DNA from: Verrucomicrobiota bacterium
GTDB lineage: Bacteria; Verrucomicrobiota; Verrucomicrobiia; Limisphaerales; PALSA-1396
Reading direction: 5' to 3'
NCBI GenBank assembly: GCA_016200005.1
Contig: JACQFP010000038.1
Coordinates: 1-64,000, forward strand
Length of the DNA: 64,000 nucleotides
The position numbers and the translations under genes were made by a program. The notes under the pieces are model-generated. The model was not told where the DNA came from and did not search any database. It was given only the letters and a program-made list of their open reading frames with translations. Below are positions 3,694 through 20,400 of this stretch, in pieces. How positions within the stretch are numbered: the first letter of the stretch is position 1; every line of letters starts with the position of its first letter.

Positions 3694-5187
<1,494 letters not shown>

Positions 5188-7148: not shown

Positions 7149-7240
7149 TTCTTAATCTTAATCTTTCTCTTTCTCTTAATTATTCACTCCTATTGGGACG
7201 GACAGCCGGGAGATTAAGATTAAGACGAAGATTAAGAACG
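7149..7240. repeat. Inverted pair of heptad arrays (TTAATCT type)
   Basis: The left arm, 7149-7182, is TTCTTAA, TCTTAAT, CTTTCTC and so on. The right arm, 7211-7240, is AGATTAA, GATTAAG, ACGAAGA, TTAAGAA. The arms are rough reverse complements separated by about 28 bp and could form a hairpin just before the GTG start at 7245. Confidence 0.75.
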
Positions 7241-7244
7241 ACCT

Positions 7245-7466
7245 GTGGACCTCTTTGACACAAACTTTCTGTTCGCCTCCTTGTTTTGGGGATCGGTCGG
7301 CATCGGCTACTGGGTTTACGGCAAGAAACAGCGGGAGATAATGCCCATGAACGGCGGCGTGGCAATGATTGCGGCGTCCTACTTGGTCGGCAGTTGGCTG
7401 TTGATGTCACTCATCTGCATCGAGGTGACGGTCGCGGTCTATCTGCTGATGAAACGAGGTTATTGA
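7245..7466 (+). CDS. Small two-helix membrane protein, unknown function
   Basis: 73 residues from a GTG start. There are two hydrophobic helices (FLFASLFWGSVGIGYWVYG and VAMIAASYLVGSWLLMSLIC), a KKQR stretch between them, and a third hydrophobic run near the C-terminus (EVTVAVYLLM). Small proteins of this shape are common and usually unassigned. No function is proposed. The 3' end overlaps the convergent vsr gene by a few bases. The upstream hairpin of heptad repeats may affect its expression. Confidence 0.6.
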   Translation: MDLFDTNFLFASLFWGSVGIGYWVYGKKQREIMPMNGGVAMIAASYLVGSWLLMSLICIEVTVAVYLLMKRGY

Positions 7467-7990
7467 ACGCAGCGCAACGCCTGTTGAATCCGCCCCACAA
7501 CAAATGATGTTCCGCGTTCCGGACTCCGCACTCCGCGTTTCTGCAATTCATGCTCCCAAATCCGAACTACGCGCCAACCTGCCTTGCGCAAGGTGCGATT
7601 CACGATCTGGTCGCGCTGTTTGTTTGCCGAAAGCTTGCGCCGCCAGAACGCACGGTTGTTTTTTGGTTTCGTTGCGTGCTTGGGACAGCCGTGCCAGAAG
7701 CAGCCGTCCACGAAGATCGCCGTGCGCGCTTTGCGAAAGACGAAGTCAGGACGCACTGCGAGTTGAGAGTTGAATGTTGATTGTTGAGAGTTCCATCTCC
7801 GCGCTTTCCGTCTCTCAACCCTCAACCAACGACTCTCAACCGTTGCACGCACCAAGGTATGTCGCCGCCAGCCGGAAATTCCATTCGCGCGCAACACCCG
7901 CGCCAACGCCAGCTCGGTGTCCTTGTTTCCTCGACCGCGAATCCGCGACATCACTTCTGACCGCTTCTGCTTTGTGAAGACGTCGGGCAT
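7460..7990 (-). CDS. vsr: Vsr-type very-short-patch-repair endonuclease with an internal repeat insertion
   Basis: 176 residues; the family is usually about 135-150. The N-terminus (MPDVFTKQKRSEVMSRIRGR) with E26 in NKDTELALARVL, the catalytic strand RPDFVF (D82), the GCFWHGCP block (H100) and the GWRVVRIWEHEL end are all present. Residues 51-77 have no counterpart in the family and are encoded by an inverted pair of heptad arrays (7760-7840). The C-terminal tail crosses another array (7509-7543). Vsr nicks T:G mismatches made by cytosine methylation and is often linked to a C5 methylase, as here. In GHKL/methylase islands a Vsr-like protein may instead be the restriction nuclease. It is the last gene of the minus-strand island. 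Confidence 0.88.
   Translation of the reverse strand: MPDVFTKQKRSEVMSRIRGRGNKDTELALARVLRANGISGWRRHTLVRATVESRWLRVERRKARRWNSQQSTFNSQLAVRPDFVFRKARTAIFVDGCFWHGCPKHATKPKNNRAFWRRKLSANKQRDQIVNRTLRKAGWRVVRIWEHELQKRGVRSPERGTSFVVGRIQQALRCVQ
7509..7543. repeat. Heptad repeat array (ACTCCGC type) in the vsr C-terminus
   Basis: GTTCCGC, GTTCCGG, ACTCCGC, ACTCCGC, GTTTCTG in tandem. It is read on the minus strand as the SPERGTS part of the Vsr tail. The same unit type recurs at 57855-57882. Confidence 0.8.
7760..7840. repeat. Inverted pair of heptad arrays inside vsr
   Basis: The left arm 7760-7794 is GAGTTGA, GAGTTGA, ATGTTGA, TTGTTGA, GAGTTCC. The right arm 7812-7839 is CTCTCAA, CCCTCAA, CCAACGA, CTCTCAA. 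The arms are reverse complements of one another, 17 bp apart, and stay in frame within vsr. Confidence 0.85.
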
Positions 7991-10003: not shown

Positions 10004-10762
10004 TCAGGCATTGAGCATCCGACTGATTGAAAGCGCTCGACGGCATAACGCATCGGATTCCGATTCCGTGTTGAGCGAATCCAAACAAACAACCCGGGCA
10101 ATCCGATTGACTGTTTTGCAGATGCCCGCCTGAGCAGGATCGTTGAGCGATTGAGCTTCTTGGAGCGCGGCAAGGCGTTGTGCAACGACCATGTGACCAG
10201 AGAAAGCGCAATCACCAAACCAAAGCATGAGCGTCTGGCGACCTCGAACTTTTTTCGTCACATCGTATCTCTGTGGATCGTCTTCTGACCGTGTGTGGTC
10301 GCACGTTATTTCAGCCCACCACCAAAGTCTTGAAAGGGCATTCCTTCTAATGTTGCCTGCAAATCTTATCCAAAGCGTATTTGGGAGCGGCGTGTCCCAC
10401 CGCCAGCGGACATATTGCGGACAACCGATGCAAGCGATGTATGCCCAGAAATCCGCATCTGAAGCTTCACGGACGGTTAAACCGTTCAGTGCCTTGTGCA
10501 GCGCCACCGCCAGCCTGCCGTCAGTCTCCGCACGCTCGTCCCGAGTTGGCGAATCTCCGAGACTCGTCAAAATTCTCTCGAAAGCGTCTTTGAAGGCTTG
10601 GACCGCCAAAGCCGTGTTGACGTGTGCCGAAAGATCGAACTGTTGCAGCTTCAATCCTTCTCGGGGCGGTGGTTGAACTTCTCGCCACGATGTGGCCGCT
10701 GCTGCTGCTGCGAGCCATTCGCTCGATTTGAGTGTTTTCCGATTTGTTATGCGATGTGTCAT
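10004..10762 (-). CDS. Unknown island protein, possibly DUF6339-like
   Basis: 252 residues from the ATG at 10762, chosen because it overlaps the TGA of the upstream gene as ATGA. The longer frame would run 75 bp further into that gene. There is an Ala-rich start (SEWLAAAAAATSWREV), then helices with WAYIACIGCPQYVRWRW, SRLWWWAEITCDHTR and LMLWFGDCAFSGHMVVAQRL. The Trp-rich pattern reminds me of DUF6339 proteins near methylases, but this is from memory and unverified. No catalytic motif is evident. Tight coupling to the 316-residue protein and the ATPase suggests a complex. Confidence 0.65.
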   Translation of the reverse strand: MTHRITNRKTLKSSEWLAAAAAATSWREVQPPPREGLKLQQFDLSAHVNTALAVQAFKDAFERILTSLGDSPTRDERAETDGRLAVALHKALNGLTVREASDADFWAYIACIGCPQYVRWRWDTPLPNTLWIRFAGNIRRNALSRLWWWAEITCDHTRSEDDPQRYDVTKKVRGRQTLMLWFGDCAFSGHMVVAQRLAALQEAQSLNDPAQAGICKTVNRIARVVCLDSLNTESESDALCRRALSISRMLNA

Positions 10763-11709
10763 GCGGAGCCTCTTGCTTCGGGTTGAAATCGAAGAATGCC
10801 ATTTATGCGAGAAAGATTTTGTGCGACAAGAAGGCAATGCTGAATTCGCACGGACAACTCAATCATGCCATGCACATCAAGGTTGTCCACATTCGGCAAT
10901 TCCCATTCATTCTCGGAAAAGTTTGACCGCCACATTTTGGCGATCCGCGTTGCCGGCCATTTCTCTTGGTCTGCGCTCTCCTCGCGCAAAGCCCAAATCA
11001 AAACCTTCTCCCAAATTTGTTGCCACAAGAACACGCGCATGGACGCTCCGGCAAGCGCAGCCGGTGAGTTGTCGCCGGTTCTCAAAAGAACGGTCTCTAT
11101 CTGGCCGCGATATTTTGCATTGAGCCAGACTTTTGGCGTCTGGCTTCCGCCGGACAACTCGACGTGAACGAATGCCTCTTTCGGGAGATTGTTCGCTGAA
11201 AAGTCCAGCCAATCCACGGGAAGGGTGTCTCCCGTCCAGTCCTCGTCCACGGTTAAGACGATTGGTTGCGACGAAACACCCACAACAACTCCTCGCGAAA
11301 CAGAAACAGAATTGTTTGCCGTTGCGTTACCGCTCGCCAAGAACAGCACGTCGAGTTGTGCGACTCCTCGCAGGCGATTGATAGGAATTTCAACAGCAAC
11401 TTGACCGTTGCCGTCGGCTTCAAAAAACTTCCGGAACTTGCTTTCTTTGCAGAGAACTCGGACTCCTGGTGTGACAGATGTTCGACGCGCGGCATCGAAA
11501 ACATGAGCAATCACTTCTTCGCAGGCAGTTTCAATTTTCAATCCCACTTGAATTGAGCCGTCGTTACGTTCTCGCAACGATCCACAATCAACCACAAGCC
11601 CGGCTGCAGATTCACAAGCTTCAAAAGAAATCTGCCCGAACTTAACCGAGTCGAGACTGTATCGAACGTCATCGAAAACGGGATACGGCCAAGCGGTTGC
11701 TTTAAGCAT
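10759..11709 (-). CDS. Unknown 316-residue island protein coupled to the GHKL ATPase
   Basis: Not recognised. The first two thirds look beta-rich (LVVDCGSLRERNDGSIQVGL, VSRGVVVGVSSQPIVLTVDE, VDWLDFSANNLPKEAFVHVE). The last third is helical (MRVFLWQQIWEKVLIWALRE, MIELSVRIQHCLLVAQNLSR). It starts 8 bp inside the 3' end of the ATPase gene and its stop overlaps the next start, so three genes are translationally coupled. It may be the DNA- or target-binding partner of the ATPase; that is inference from position only. Confidence 0.65.
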   Translation of the reverse strand: MLKATAWPYPVFDDVRYSLDSVKFGQISFEACESAAGLVVDCGSLRERNDGSIQVGLKIETACEEVIAHVFDAARRTSVTPGVRVLCKESKFRKFFEADGNGQVAVEIPINRLRGVAQLDVLFLASGNATANNSVSVSRGVVVGVSSQPIVLTVDEDWTGDTLPVDWLDFSANNLPKEAFVHVELSGGSQTPKVWLNAKYRGQIETVLLRTGDNSPAALAGASMRVFLWQQIWEKVLIWALREESADQEKWPATRIAKMWRSNFSENEWELPNVDNLDVHGMIELSVRIQHCLLVAQNLSRINGILRFQPEARGSA

Positions 11710-13630
11710 GTGCGTCCTCCCCTAATTGTTCCGACTCTGGTGCGACGGCTTCGGTCGAAAGAGAAGCCTTCAACAAGCCTTCGCTTACTGAGAAAACTTC
11801 CGGCTGAAGTGCTTCCGTCGCGCCCGAAATCCGAATTTGAGTATCCGCTGCGAGCGTCGGAATTGTTACTCGCAGCTTTCCATTCGGGAGCGTTTCCTTT
11901 GGCAAGTTGCCCGGCACGGTGACAATTCTCTCCAAGCGAAACCTGTCTTCCCTTGAGGCGTTTCCGGTTTCCAAGGCTGGCTCAACCGAGATGTCCACTT
12001 TGGACGGCGGCTTCCCTGCTTCCACTCTCGCTCTGACTTCAAAACTGTAGCGGTTCTCATCACGGTTGAACGTTTGGAGACGAAGATGCGGCTGTCCGGG
12101 CGGCGGTGGTGGTGGCGGGCCGGTGCGTCCAACGCCGGGAAATTTCAAACCTGCCTCCAGCGGGCTTAAATCACTCGCTGTCTCTGGTTGCTCAACGCGG
12201 CTGTTACGCTCAAAATAATCCCGGAGTTTCTTGAGCAAGTCTCGCACCACGGGGCGTGCTTCCGGCCAATGCCTCAGACTCGCCGACTTCTCATCCCAAC
12301 GAGTGTGCGTCACATATTCGGAGAAACCAAGCAGCACGTCACCGCGAACGCCTTGCTCTGATGCGTCAGATGCCCGCCCGCCGAGCGCTATTCCGACGAA
12401 TGGGCGAACAAGCGTATTGCCCGTCATCTTCGCATAGCCAACAACCATGCCCTGGCCTCGGATGCACGCGACCTTCCGAACGAAATCTTCTCTGACCTCT
12501 TCTTCCCGTGGCACGAAAGCCATTCCGACCTTTGCGAAAGTTGTGGCCTGTGGCGTGGTTCGAGGAGGTGGTCCTTGGGGAACAACAACCGGAATCCGTT
12601 CGTTCGGCACATCATGCGTTCCGCGCTCGCCGCTTCGCATCCGCTCGTAAAGCGAAATGAACGGCTGGTAGTGTGCGAGTTGATTTGCCGCGTCGAGACG
12701 TTCTCCTGATTCGCTTTCACAAATAACTTCCAAGCGTTCATCAACAATCGCCGGCCAAAAATATCTCGCTGCGTATCGCGCGAACTTCGCGTGCGTTGCC
12801 AAATCGTCATCCTCGCTCTCCGGAGCGCACCAGAACGGAATCAGGATTGTTGTCCCACATTCGCTGTTGGTTTCGCGCCGACTGATGCCTGTTTTTGTGG
12901 CCAGCACTTGGGCCTGTTCATTGCACAGCGGCCTGCACCAATCTTCTCTTGTGTCACCGCCGTAGCCCAACCCTCTGTATGGAGAACCGCTAAGAAAATG
13001 CGGGCCGAGTCTGGCTTGAGCAGCCGCCCTGTGAACAGTGTTGTTGTTGGGAATTGAAAGACGCGAAAAGAAAACCACCGTCTGAACCTGCGAAGCCGAC
13101 CAGAGAACGGCCTTACCCAATCCATACGTTCCACCCGACCCAAGCCCTTGCTTCTCGCGGCGCGCGTCATCTCGCGCCAAAGCGATGTAGGCCTTTGGCG
13201 GTTCTCCCGGCCAACGGCGTTCATCATTCAGGGTGCGGACTGCTTCAGGTCCAACTAAGCCAATCGTGCCTGTTTCGGATATTTCCAAAACATCAAGCGT
13301 TGATGACTCCAGTCGAGTCGGGTCACCAAATTCAGTCGGCTCTTCCCTCATCGTGCGAATCCGGTTCGCTTCCGCGACGCGTTCCTTGAGCTTTGACCAA
13401 CCCAACGCAGCCAGAAAATTCCCTTTCGGCCCAGGGTTGCTAATCCGGTGGAGTTTGAACGAGACGTGAACAATCTGTCCTTGCTGTGCCGCATCCAAGG
13501 AATTCTGCAATACTTCTCGGACAAAAATCTCAAATGGCGAGATCGTGTGATCGCCCTCGATGATGATTCTCGATTTGGATGCGGCGTCGTTATCGCCGGC
13601 CAATGGTCGTGCTTGGAATTCCCAATCCAT
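11702..13630 (-). CDS. GHKL (HSP90/MutL-like) ATPase of a restriction-type island
   Basis: 642 residues. The Bergerat ATP-binding fold is visible: N-box FVREVLQNSLDAA (E39, N43, D46), a G1-like loop LEISETGTIGLVGP near 116-128, and the glycine lid SGGTYGLGKAVLWSAS near 165-180. A G-rich YRGLGYGGD follows. The middle has IPFWCAPE and ARYFWPAI. A poly-Pro linker (GPPPPPPPG) leads to a C-terminal beta-rich domain. This layout matches the MutL/MORC-like ATPases reported in bacterial restriction islands with C5 methylases, Vsr-like nucleases and Z1 helicases. No Z1 helicase is in this window. It begins 15 bp after vapC and probably shares its transcript. Confidence 0.8.
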   Translation of the reverse strand: MDWEFQARPLAGDNDAASKSRIIIEGDHTISPFEIFVREVLQNSLDAAQQGQIVHVSFKLHRISNPGPKGNFLAALGWSKLKERVAEANRIRTMREEPTEFGDPTRLESSTLDVLEISETGTIGLVGPEAVRTLNDERRWPGEPPKAYIALARDDARREKQGLGSGGTYGLGKAVLWSASQVQTVVFFSRLSIPNNNTVHRAAAQARLGPHFLSGSPYRGLGYGGDTREDWCRPLCNEQAQVLATKTGISRRETNSECGTTILIPFWCAPESEDDDLATHAKFARYAARYFWPAIVDERLEVICESESGERLDAANQLAHYQPFISLYERMRSGERGTHDVPNERIPVVVPQGPPPRTTPQATTFAKVGMAFVPREEEVREDFVRKVACIRGQGMVVGYAKMTGNTLVRPFVGIALGGRASDASEQGVRGDVLLGFSEYVTHTRWDEKSASLRHWPEARPVVRDLLKKLRDYFERNSRVEQPETASDLSPLEAGLKFPGVGRTGPPPPPPPGQPHLRLQTFNRDENRYSFEVRARVEAGKPPSKVDISVEPALETGNASREDRFRLERIVTVPGNLPKETLPNGKLRVTIPTLAADTQIRISGATEALQPEVFSVSEGLLKASLSTEAVAPESEQLGEDAHA

Positions 13631-17492: not shown

Positions 17493-20400
17493 ATGAAAAC
17501 CAAACTGATTCTCTCATTTGCGCTGTGGGTTGTCTCCAGCACCTCCACGTTCGCGGCGACCTCAATTACCATCCGCAATCCCACACCGGCGGCCAACGAG
17601 TATTTCGGCTATGCCGTGGCGGCAGTGGGCACGGACAGGGTGCTCATCGGGGCAACGGACGCCGGCGGCGGATGGCAGGGCGAGGCCTACCTTTTCTCAA
17701 TTTACGGAGGGTTCATCGGGACTATCTATAATCCCACGGGCGCCAGTTACGACGATTTTGGCTGCGCCGTGGCCGCAGTGGGCACGGGCAAGGTGCTCAT
17801 CGGGGACAGCGGGGATAACACCTACGCGGCGGACGCCGGGGCGGCGTACCTGTTTACCAGCTCTGGATCGTTGTTGACCAATTTCCACAGTCCCACGCCC
17901 GCGGCCTACGACTATTTCGGCAGTGCCGTGGCGGGGGTGGGCACGGACAAGGTGCTCATCGGGTCGGGCGGCACGGGGTCCGCGTACCTGTTTAGTAGCA
18001 GCGGCACATGGTTGACTACCTTCACCAACCCCGCGCCGGCGCTCCCCAGGATTTTCGGCCAATCCGTGGCCGGCGTGGGAACGGACAAGGTGCTTCTCGG
18101 GGCCTACGTGGCGGACCCCGGCGCAACGTACTCCGGGACGGCGTACCTGTTCAGCACCAATGGAACGTTGCTGGCCAGTTTTACCAAACCCACGGCGCCC
18201 GTCTCGACGTCGTTCGGAATTTCCGTGGCGGCGGTGGGAACGGACAAAGTGCTCATCGGGGCCGACACGGATAGCACGGGCGGTGCGTACGCCGGGGCGG
18301 CGTACTTGTTCAGCACCAACGGCACGTTGCTGACCACGCTTACCAATCCCACGCCGAAGGGCTACGCCTATTTCGGCCATGCCGTGGCTGGCTTGGGCAC
18401 GGACAGAGTCCTCATCGGAGAGTATGGTGGGGCAGCGTACGCCGGGGCGGCGTACGTGTTCAGCACCAATGGAACATTGTTGGCCACTTTCGGGGGGGCG
18501 ACGACCACTATGTTTGGCTATGCCGTTGCGGCGGTGGGCACGGACAAGGCTCTCATCGGCGCTTATGCCGACGACAGCAACGGGCAAAACGCGGGCATCG
18601 CCTTCCTCTATAGTTCATTTACGCCCCCGTCGGCAACGACGCTGCCGGCTACCCCGCTGACGGCGAACTCAGTCACGCTCAACGGCACGGTCAATCCGAA
18701 CGCGAGCCAAACGACGGCTTGGTTCGAGTGGGGCACGACGACGAGCTATGGCAACAGGACTGCGATCACAAATGCGGGGAGTGGTACGTCTCCGGTGCCG
18801 GTAATGTTGCCAATCACCAATCTGCTCGCCGGAACCAATTATCACTGTCGCATCGTGGCGTCGAACAGCTCTGCCGTGGTGACTGGTAATGATCAGGCGG
18901 TCCCGTTTCCCATGCCCGTCGTTTCGACTGAGCTGCCCACGGCCATCTCGTCCAGCGGCGCCGCGCTCAACGGCACAGTGAATCCCAATGGCTGGCCGCT
19001 CACCGTTTGGTTCGAGTGGGGCCGGGTCTCCCTCACCAATACCGCGGGTCTGATGAATCTGGCCGGTGGCAACGCCACTTTTCCCATACGCGCCACGGTC
19101 ACCGGGCTGGTTTCCGGCTTGAGCTATGACTACCGACTCGTCGCCAGCAACGGTGGATTCATGGTCCATGGCGCGGTTCAAAACTTCGTGGTCCCTTCAC
19201 TGCCCGTCGTGAGCACCCTCGCAGCGTCCTCTGTCACGACCAACAGGGCGACTCTCAACGGAACGGTCAACCCGATGTCCTCGCCGGCCAGGGCCTGGTT
19301 CGAATGGGGACCGACCACCAACTACGGTTATACCAGCGGTTCAGTGGACGCCGGTTCAACCCCTCAGGTTGTGCCGGTTAACATGAGCATCGGCTCGTTG
19401 TTCAGCTTCACCCCGTACCACTTCAGGCTCGTGGCAACAAATGCGGGGGGCGCAGCCTATGGACAGGATGTGACCTTCACCACGCCGAGCGGGTCGGACA
19501 CGCCCGAAGGGATACACGTCAGCCCCACTCTTCTCTCCTCGGCAGGCGGCATCCTCATTACTGCGACCTATGTCGGCGGAGAATTTTACTCCGAGGCCAC
19601 ACCGCCACCATTCCGAATCCGAATGGTCAACACAAACGGCGCGCGTCTCAGCGCGCTGGATCCTGTGAGCATCAGCCCAACCAAGCTCACTTTCACTTCC
19701 CCTGCGTTGGCCGCCGGTTTCTACGGTTTCGTGGTCCAACTCCAGAATGCCGGCCAATGGTTGGATGTGTATGAGTCATCGCACCGATTTTTCAAGGTGG
19801 AGATTCAGCCGATACAACTGACGCTCCCGTATCAAATTCTCCAACCACAGTATCCGACTCTGCAACGAAATCCGGCGGATTTTCTCGACACCACGCCAAG
19901 CTACACGGCCACGGGCGTGATCACCGGCCAGGTCACCGTCCCCCACCACGTGAACGACGGCGACAGCTTCGCCAACAAACAATGGACGAAGAATTTTTGG
20001 CGGAGTGGCGAGAACGGCGTCAAGTTCGAGCTCGACTTCCTGCTCGACAACAACGCCACGTACAATTTCTCGATCCCCTTTGAAATCACCATTGAAATTC
20101 CCGCGACTGTGTACCGGGGACAGCACGTCTATTTCACGCCCACCTGGTTCCGCTACCTTGGAGGAGACACACTGCAAGTCGGTCACAGCGGCAGTTACAG
20201 CACCGACCACCGCCTCTGGCTGAACGTGCCTTATGACGGCCTGTCGGCGCTGGACCTCTCCCTTTCGCAGCGGCCGGACGGACTTGCAGTTGTCGGTAAG
20301 TTGCCTGCGTCTCCTGATGTGGATCTGTGGCTCGATGTTTGGCCATTCAACACCGGGGACGTATCCTATGGTGGCGTGCACAACCGGCTTGGGGGATACG

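Follow-up and report, generated by a model that had tools for sequence, protein, structure and literature searches.

Among the closest systems described to date are the Rickettsia palindromic elements (RPEs), palindromic repeats that lie in frame within conserved Rickettsia genes and are translated with them; the available part of that work describes a guanylate kinase carrying an RPE that was active when tested and showed a changed affinity for its substrate (PMC2229807). A comparable decoration of genes has been reported for the intragenic GTAG REPs, which, in the accessible portion of the report, reach their highest number in O. terrae and are frequently located in DNA repair genes, and which include the case of recB, where different REPs occur near the same site in two Xanthomonas species; vsr does not appear in the main text of that publication, to the extent that it is accessible (PMC3733652). 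Finally, the heptameric repeats of cyanobacteria, Xanthomonas and Beggiatoaceae consist of 7-nt units that fall into several families and form partly inverted arrays. The sections of these papers that are available place them mainly between genes (PMC4692102, PMC4679880), and polymerase slippage has been proposed as a cause.

Repeats inserted in frame are generally portrayed as being tolerated. A literature search, in which few subscription papers were covered, returned nothing on heptads within genes of Verrucomicrobia or on a variable loop in Vsr proteins. In this study, we analyze a stretch of 64,000 nucleotides (hereafter, the window) from the 6.54-Mb genome of a Verrucomicrobiota bacterium, assembled in 87 contigs, in which a gene for a Vsr-type endonuclease carries an inverted pair of heptad arrays.

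The vsr gene and its product

The product of the vsr gene (Table 1) scores 62 bits against Pfam PF03852, above the curated cut-off of 27, and 96.5 bits against NCBIfam TIGR00632, marginally below the cut-off of 97.85. The PADLOC Vsr model also matches this ORF (E 3.5e-14), a profile search retrieves PDB 1cw0 (E 7.6e-25), and a Foldseek search with the predicted structure recovers 1cw0_A (E 4.1e-7, TM 0.68 by target). All these matches are Vsr nicking or mismatch endonucleases, and they lend no support to the idea, raised in the original prediction, that the protein might be the restriction enzyme of an island.

The fold and the conserved PDF and CFWH residues are retained. In an alignment of 47 Vsr sequences, the D and F of the PDF motif are invariant and the P is nearly so; the motif aligns with the PDF of 1cw0, and we take its Asp to be the catalytic one, equivalent to Asp51 of E. 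coli Vsr. The E. coli protein (PDB 1cw0, 1vsr, 1odg) thus has its fold and its PDF/CFWH core in common with the window Vsr. The comparison with a Vsr structure (1cw0) that had been proposed earlier reveals where the two differ: the E. coli enzyme reaches the motif through a short loop (SLPGRPDF), whereas in the window protein this segment extends over 35 residues and ends in VRPDF.

Table 1. Features of the window in and around the vsr gene.
Feature	Position	Strand	Basis or remark
vsr, 176 aa, predicted Vsr-type DNA mismatch (nicking) endonuclease	7460..7990	-	Pfam, NCBIfam, PADLOC, PDB profile
P-D-F codons, residues 81-83, one residue past the loop	7742..7750	-	47-sequence alignment; 1cw0
Long-loop segment, residues 45-79 (TLVRAT...SQLAV), WRRH to RPDF	7754..7858	-	Anchored extraction; AlphaFold model
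Heptad arm A, GAGTTGA GAGTTGA ATGTTGA TTGTTGA GAGTT	7760..7792	+	Four units and a partial fifth
Spacer between the paired arms, 21 nt	7791..7811	+	Positions 7791-7792 also belong to arm A
Heptad arm B, CTCTCAA CCCTCAA CCAACGA CTCTCAA C	7812..7840	+	Four units, one degenerate; inverted relative to arm A
Second in-gene heptad array, encodes STLNSQLST	4572..4614	+	Within lipase maturation factor ORF 3694-5187
C5 cytosine methyltransferase, 512 aa	8392..9930	-	PF00145 E 1.4e-45; TIGR00675 dcm; PADLOC DrmMII/MTase_II
ORF matching M33C of PADLOC candidate defence system PDC-M33	10004-10837		PADLOC
ORF matching M33A of PADLOC candidate defence system PDC-M33	11702-13630		PADLOC

An inverted heptad pair in frame within vsr

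Both the sequence and the reading frame bear out that vsr is interrupted in frame by an inverted pair of heptad arrays. The loop that holds it measures 105 nt by anchored extraction, while that of 97 of 153 homologues measures 15 nt. The paired portions of the arms (7762-7790 and 7812-7840, 29 nt each) are 79% complementary, and folded as single-stranded DNA the hairpin reaches -19 kcal/mol (z -4.75), a value that none of 200 dinucleotide shuffles equaled. Since this fold beats the 200 shuffles, and since the 7-nt periodicity (lag-7, p 0.010) and the hairpin score (p 0.016) of the loop both stand at the floor of the shuffle test, the heptad hairpin is not a product of chance. Chance or an assembly error as the source of the pattern has been ruled out, as many independent assemblies show it again.

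The original prediction had described residues 51-77 (positions 7760-7840) as wholly encoded by five units of one orientation and four of the other. The residues and coordinates are correct, as is the count of four for arm B if its degenerate unit is included; arm A holds four units plus a partial fifth rather than five, and the 21-nt spacer is mostly non-heptad, so the segment is not wholly heptad-encoded. Its placement just before the catalytic PDF strand also stands: the Pfam Vsr match is split at this point, and in the AlphaFold model two strands (46-49 and 75-78, numbered without the first Met) flank the insert around a tip. The mean pLDDT of this model is 82.6 overall, and residues 67-71 at the tip fall below 50. 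When the arms were compared by eye between the window and the homologous locus L193, one base pair was found altered on both sides; the same comparison among L075, L196 and L203 revealed no compensatory change.

A second hairpin of short tandem units was observed nearby. It is built of TCTTAA-type hexads, with arms at 7149-7176 and 7211-7238, and is located between a peptidase ORF and a small ORF at 7245.

The loop site across Vsr homologues

Homologues were gathered from 80 loci (named genome contigs), from 40 extra stretches, and from the best 30 loci each of a class search (384 genomes, 157 matching) and an order search (320 genomes, 145 matching). The parsed set comprises 153 distinct rows, the loop being defined as the WRR-to-PDF interval; these rows contain second readings of L113, L116 and L136 and one artefact (L123), leaving otherwise 149 rows, 54 of them with a long loop. 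Ten vsr loci that could not be parsed (L158, L160, L162, L192, L199, L205, L209, L241, L242 and L243) are absent from all counts. Eight of them (all except L160 and L162) were inspected by eye, and L199, L205, L241 and L243 proved to be long-looped; the loop of L199 holds a GTAG REP and that of L243 inverted GCGGA-type heptads.

Loop length takes two states. It is exactly 5 residues in 97 of the 153 rows, in agreement with the earlier statement that the insert stands in place of a usual short loop, and 14-72 residues in the other 56 (72 being the L123 parsing artefact), with nothing in between. The 5-residue loops always end in Gly, while 51 of the 56 long loops end in Val; Leu, Ile or Val occupies position 3 of the long loops in 53 of 56 and Arg or Lys position 4 in 36 of 56. 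These conserved ends are consistent with a beta-hairpin having a free tip. The window Vsr is a member of a long-loop type in which a wide variety of unrelated repeats occupies this site. Within the named set, 20 of the 22 long loops carry the label Verrucomicrobiota and two that of Pseudomonadota. The genome to which the window belongs encodes two more Vsr proteins, both with a 5-residue loop.

A tree of the 153 Vsr cores is weakly resolved because it rests on only 119 columns: 77 of its 150 inner branches are open, loop length changes 23 times on it, and a single origin of the long loop was not rejected by the AU test (p 0.476). The nearest short-loop relative, L178, has a core protein 82% identical to that of the window and a loop that differs at both junctions, and thus does not offer an exact empty site in which a target-site duplication of the MITE kind could be recognized. 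Two records labelled Polynucleobacter (L139) and Akkermansia (L075) have Vsr proteins that group with sequences of the Opitutae and Limisphaerales types, and their labels may be wrong.

Repeats occupying the loop

Significant 7-nt periodicity was detected in 25 of the 56 long loops and in none of 111 vsr flank stretches of equal length, and a significant hairpin in 20 of 56 as against 6 of 111; either feature is present in 34 of 56 and 6 of 111, respectively. By-eye labelling, which is loose for some GCGGAAC-like and GTTTCAG-like loops, distinguishes 15 repeat types in 31 repeat-bearing loops, and along the tree the type switches 20 times. GTTGAGA pairs occur in the loops of the window, L193, L075, L196 and L203; GCGGAAC heptads in those of L077, L200, L204, L246 and L177; GTGACAA pairs in L165 and L198; GTTTCAG heptads in L087 and L173; GATTTAC heptads in L169; and palindromes starting with GTAG in L076, L080, L170 and L195, as well as in the unparsed L199. 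In the congener G001, the site that holds GTTGAGA in the window is occupied by GCGGAAC heptads, and the vsr loop sequence of this congener is identical to that of a second record (L156 and L077). The loops of L177 and L198 show in addition a second G+C-rich stretch, CCTCACCC...GAGGG-like, nested between the heptad arms.

The dispersal of insert types in their host genomes was assessed for GTAG, GCGGA and TCAAC. The GTAG palindrome GTAGCNGCNGACGTGAG occurs at 226 places in the genome of the window (G000), compared with 0 for a reversed-pattern control; it was found in all eight genomes searched, and in related genomes it often forms inverted pairs 50-60 nt apart. GCGGA heptads number 41 in G001 (2 in the control) and are weak in G000 and G422, while TCAAC heptads appear in ten of ten genomes, the control count being high in G485 and G488. 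Each of the eight genomes searched encodes Y1-type transposases, the class presumed to mobilize REPs.

Heptads elsewhere in the genome

An 857-kb sample was made up of 40 stretches and the window; its contigs were chosen where heptads had already been seen, and it is thus non-random. It contains 107 arrays of period 7, compared with 1, 11, 12 and 12 of periods 5, 6, 8 and 9. Many unit families are represented, AACTCTC (of the GAGTTGA family) being the most frequent with 21. Of 108 arrays, 15 have an inverted counterpart no farther than 250 nt away (at least 75%), as against 2 of 108 in a non-complemented control. Within called ORFs, with a margin of 90 nt or more, lie 46 of the 108 sampled arrays, a count obtained with a crude ORF caller that scores some array-dense ORFs low and from whose output vsr is absent. 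Among these in-gene arrays, those of the TCAAC family take a stop-free orientation in 16 of 16 cases. A Pfam check of ten array-bearing ORFs identified, among others, leucyl-tRNA synthetase (with two arrays), Der, methylmalonyl-CoA mutase and a CofH-like radical SAM protein. The number of arrays in ORFs, together with these hosts, indicates that heptads within functional genes are nothing unusual here. The arrays of L044, L046, L057, L058, L062 and L063, all in G000, lie in frame within conserved genes, leucyl-tRNA synthetase and Der among them, and frequently encode the peptides STLNSQLST, KSEIRNPKSE and HHASRIT.

Two families, which are few, served for comparison with Vsr. Lag-7 periodicity was positive in the linker of 4 of 30 Der orthologues (Fisher p 0.004 for the excess in Vsr loops) and in a loop of 3 of 31 distinct lipase maturation factors (LMF1; 33 rows with two duplicates; p 0.0007, computed as 3/32); the shuffle tests differed in both comparisons.

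Charge of the loop peptide

Net charge is positive in all 56 long loops, with a mean of +5.0, while the 97 short loops comprise 30 positive, 58 neutral and 9 negative ones. Read in the other five frames, the long loops are positive in 195 of 280 cases. For repeat-bearing loops of at least 20 residues, stripped of their conserved ends, the real frame was set against the average of its five alternatives, and it was the more basic in 26 of 28 (0.186 vs 0.076 per residue). The same held for 17 of 18 when about one loop per repeat type was kept, and for 17 of 22 against stop-free alternative frames only (p 0.0005; six loops had none); because relatedness among the loops makes the counts non-independent, and because the test was designed after the loops had been seen, the p-values serve as guides only. 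Among nine other long loops the real frame was more basic in seven, which is not significant. As for the controls, neither heptad arrays within other genes of the genome (17 of 32) nor the vsr core (11 of 28) showed such a bias. The Der linker is net negative in 30 of 30 orthologues, even though it is hit by the same heptads; the same repeats are thus basic in a DNA enzyme and lie within an acidic linker in a GTPase.

Selection on the enzyme

The possible inactivation of the nuclease by the insertion finds no support. The window Vsr, one of the 47 aligned sequences, has all the residues that are invariant in the alignment, and its core, compared with that of L193 (both bearing the hairpin), shows dN 0.19 and dS 1.29, a dN/dS of 0.14 that denotes purifying selection. 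Two pairs that include L203 were left out of this analysis, because the contig boundary at which L203 starts puts its codons out of register and invalidates its dN/dS. Between the window and L193, the pN/pS of the loop is approximately 0.7. Synonymous difference is lower in the loop than in the core for window-L193 (0.290 vs 0.615), L075-L196 (0.107 vs 0.273) and L166-L172 (0.273 vs 0.636), and not lower for L186-L263. Low values of this kind could reflect constraint at the DNA level or homogenization with other copies.

Genomic neighborhood

With a C5 cytosine methyltransferase and two PDC-M33 ORFs beside vsr (Table 1), it is plausible that this region is a defence or modification island. The methyltransferase is atypical of the long-loop type, as it was found near only 2 of 54 long-loop loci, compared with 21 of 95 short-loop loci, in available flanks of unequal length. 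The ORF at 10759-11709, between M33C and M33A, is unmatched and might be a component otherwise lacking from PDC-M33. Elsewhere in the window, a 159-nt tandem repeat in about two copies occupies 18063-18418.

Proposed origin and role of the insert

The insert is real, in frame and free of stops, relatives carry other repeats at the same site, and purifying selection acts on the core while the insert is present. On this basis, we consider with moderate confidence that a dispersed repeat, here an inverted heptad pair, occupies, in frame, the tip of a long beta-hairpin, where it provides raw material for a variable basic finger. A dispersed pair of this kind would be translated with the enzyme at a hairpin that is naturally long in this Vsr subfamily. 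REP-type hairpins may arrive through RAYT-type single-strand transposition, while heptads may arise from slippage or template switching; only in-frame, stop-free inserts would survive, and frames yielding a net positive peptide would be favored because the hairpin, as we propose, lies next to the active site and contacts DNA. Rather than a lesion, the repeat would then be raw material, with contact to DNA being what we infer. Judging from sequence comparisons, the insert appears to be translated and tolerated, and is probably useful. A bolder proposal, which we put forward only tentatively, is that the hairpin next to the active site of Verrucomicrobiota Vsr proteins is an evolutionary socket that time and again captures unrelated repeats (heptad arrays, REPINs) in frame, with selection for net positive charge only, yielding an exchangeable DNA-binding finger through which the nuclease is tuned. 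As a counterpoint, the loop pN/pS near 0.7 and the low synonymous difference between the window and L193 point to conservation of the DNA rather than of the protein.

That same pN/pS would be expected if a permissive tip merely gathered whatever repeats the genome scatters and the peptide did nothing, a reading that also draws on the abundance of in-gene heptads and on the Der linker and LMF1 loop, which are hit as well. We regard it as rather unlikely, since Vsr loops are affected more often than either comparison family, differences in the shuffle tests notwithstanding, and since positive charge is maintained across repeat types while the Der linker stays acidic with the same heptads. If the hairpin acted instead as a nucleic acid (a translation brake, a determinant of mRNA stability, or a segment that is bypassed or excised) and the peptide were a by-product, the strength of the hairpin and the reduced synonymous difference in three pairs would be accounted for. 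This is improbable given that 14 of the 25 lag-7 loops (e.g., L077, L185, L246) show no significant hairpin, that stop avoidance and charge bias reveal reading as protein, and that a segment which is bypassed or excised could do without an open frame. Finally, a vsr gene on its way to becoming a pseudogene would fit an insert that adjoins the catalytic strand and an NCBIfam score 1.35 bits below the cut-off, and three of the ten unparsed loci (L192, L209 and L242) do appear broken near the motif. The intact invariant residues and the low core dN/dS at high dS between two insert-bearing homologues make this extremely improbable, as does the open frame of all 56 parsed long loops, even though the parser required an open loop and thereby favored intact genes.

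Comparison with known systems

Compared by description, the vsr insert resembles the RPEs in being a palindromic repeat in frame within a coding gene. It differs in that RPEs, as characterized in the available part of their description, are 105-146 nt elements of Rickettsia, whereas the Vsr inserts are degenerate 7-mer arrays of many families at one site. The likeness to REP-decorated genes lies in the GTAG palindromes found in the Vsr loops of several relatives; the insert of the window, in contrast, is a heptad array that has no GTAG end, and hence it does not qualify as a GTAG REP or REPIN. With the heptameric tandem repeats, this genome shares the over-representation of 7-nt tandem units in the 857 kb sampled. 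Whereas those repeats are described elsewhere, in the accessible parts of the reports, as mainly intergenic, a large fraction of the arrays sampled here lies inside called genes.

A single Vsr loop that has hosted about 15 repeat types with its charge preserved and its sequence not, together with Der as an oppositely charged control hit by the same repeats, opens to direct testing the question of whether DNA that is selfish or born of slippage turns into functional protein sequence, and Vsr is a small, assayable nuclease for that purpose. The in-frame insertion of repeats is already known from the Rickettsia palindromic elements and from REP-decorated genes; what is new here is the heptads, their recurrence at one site and the conservation of charge.
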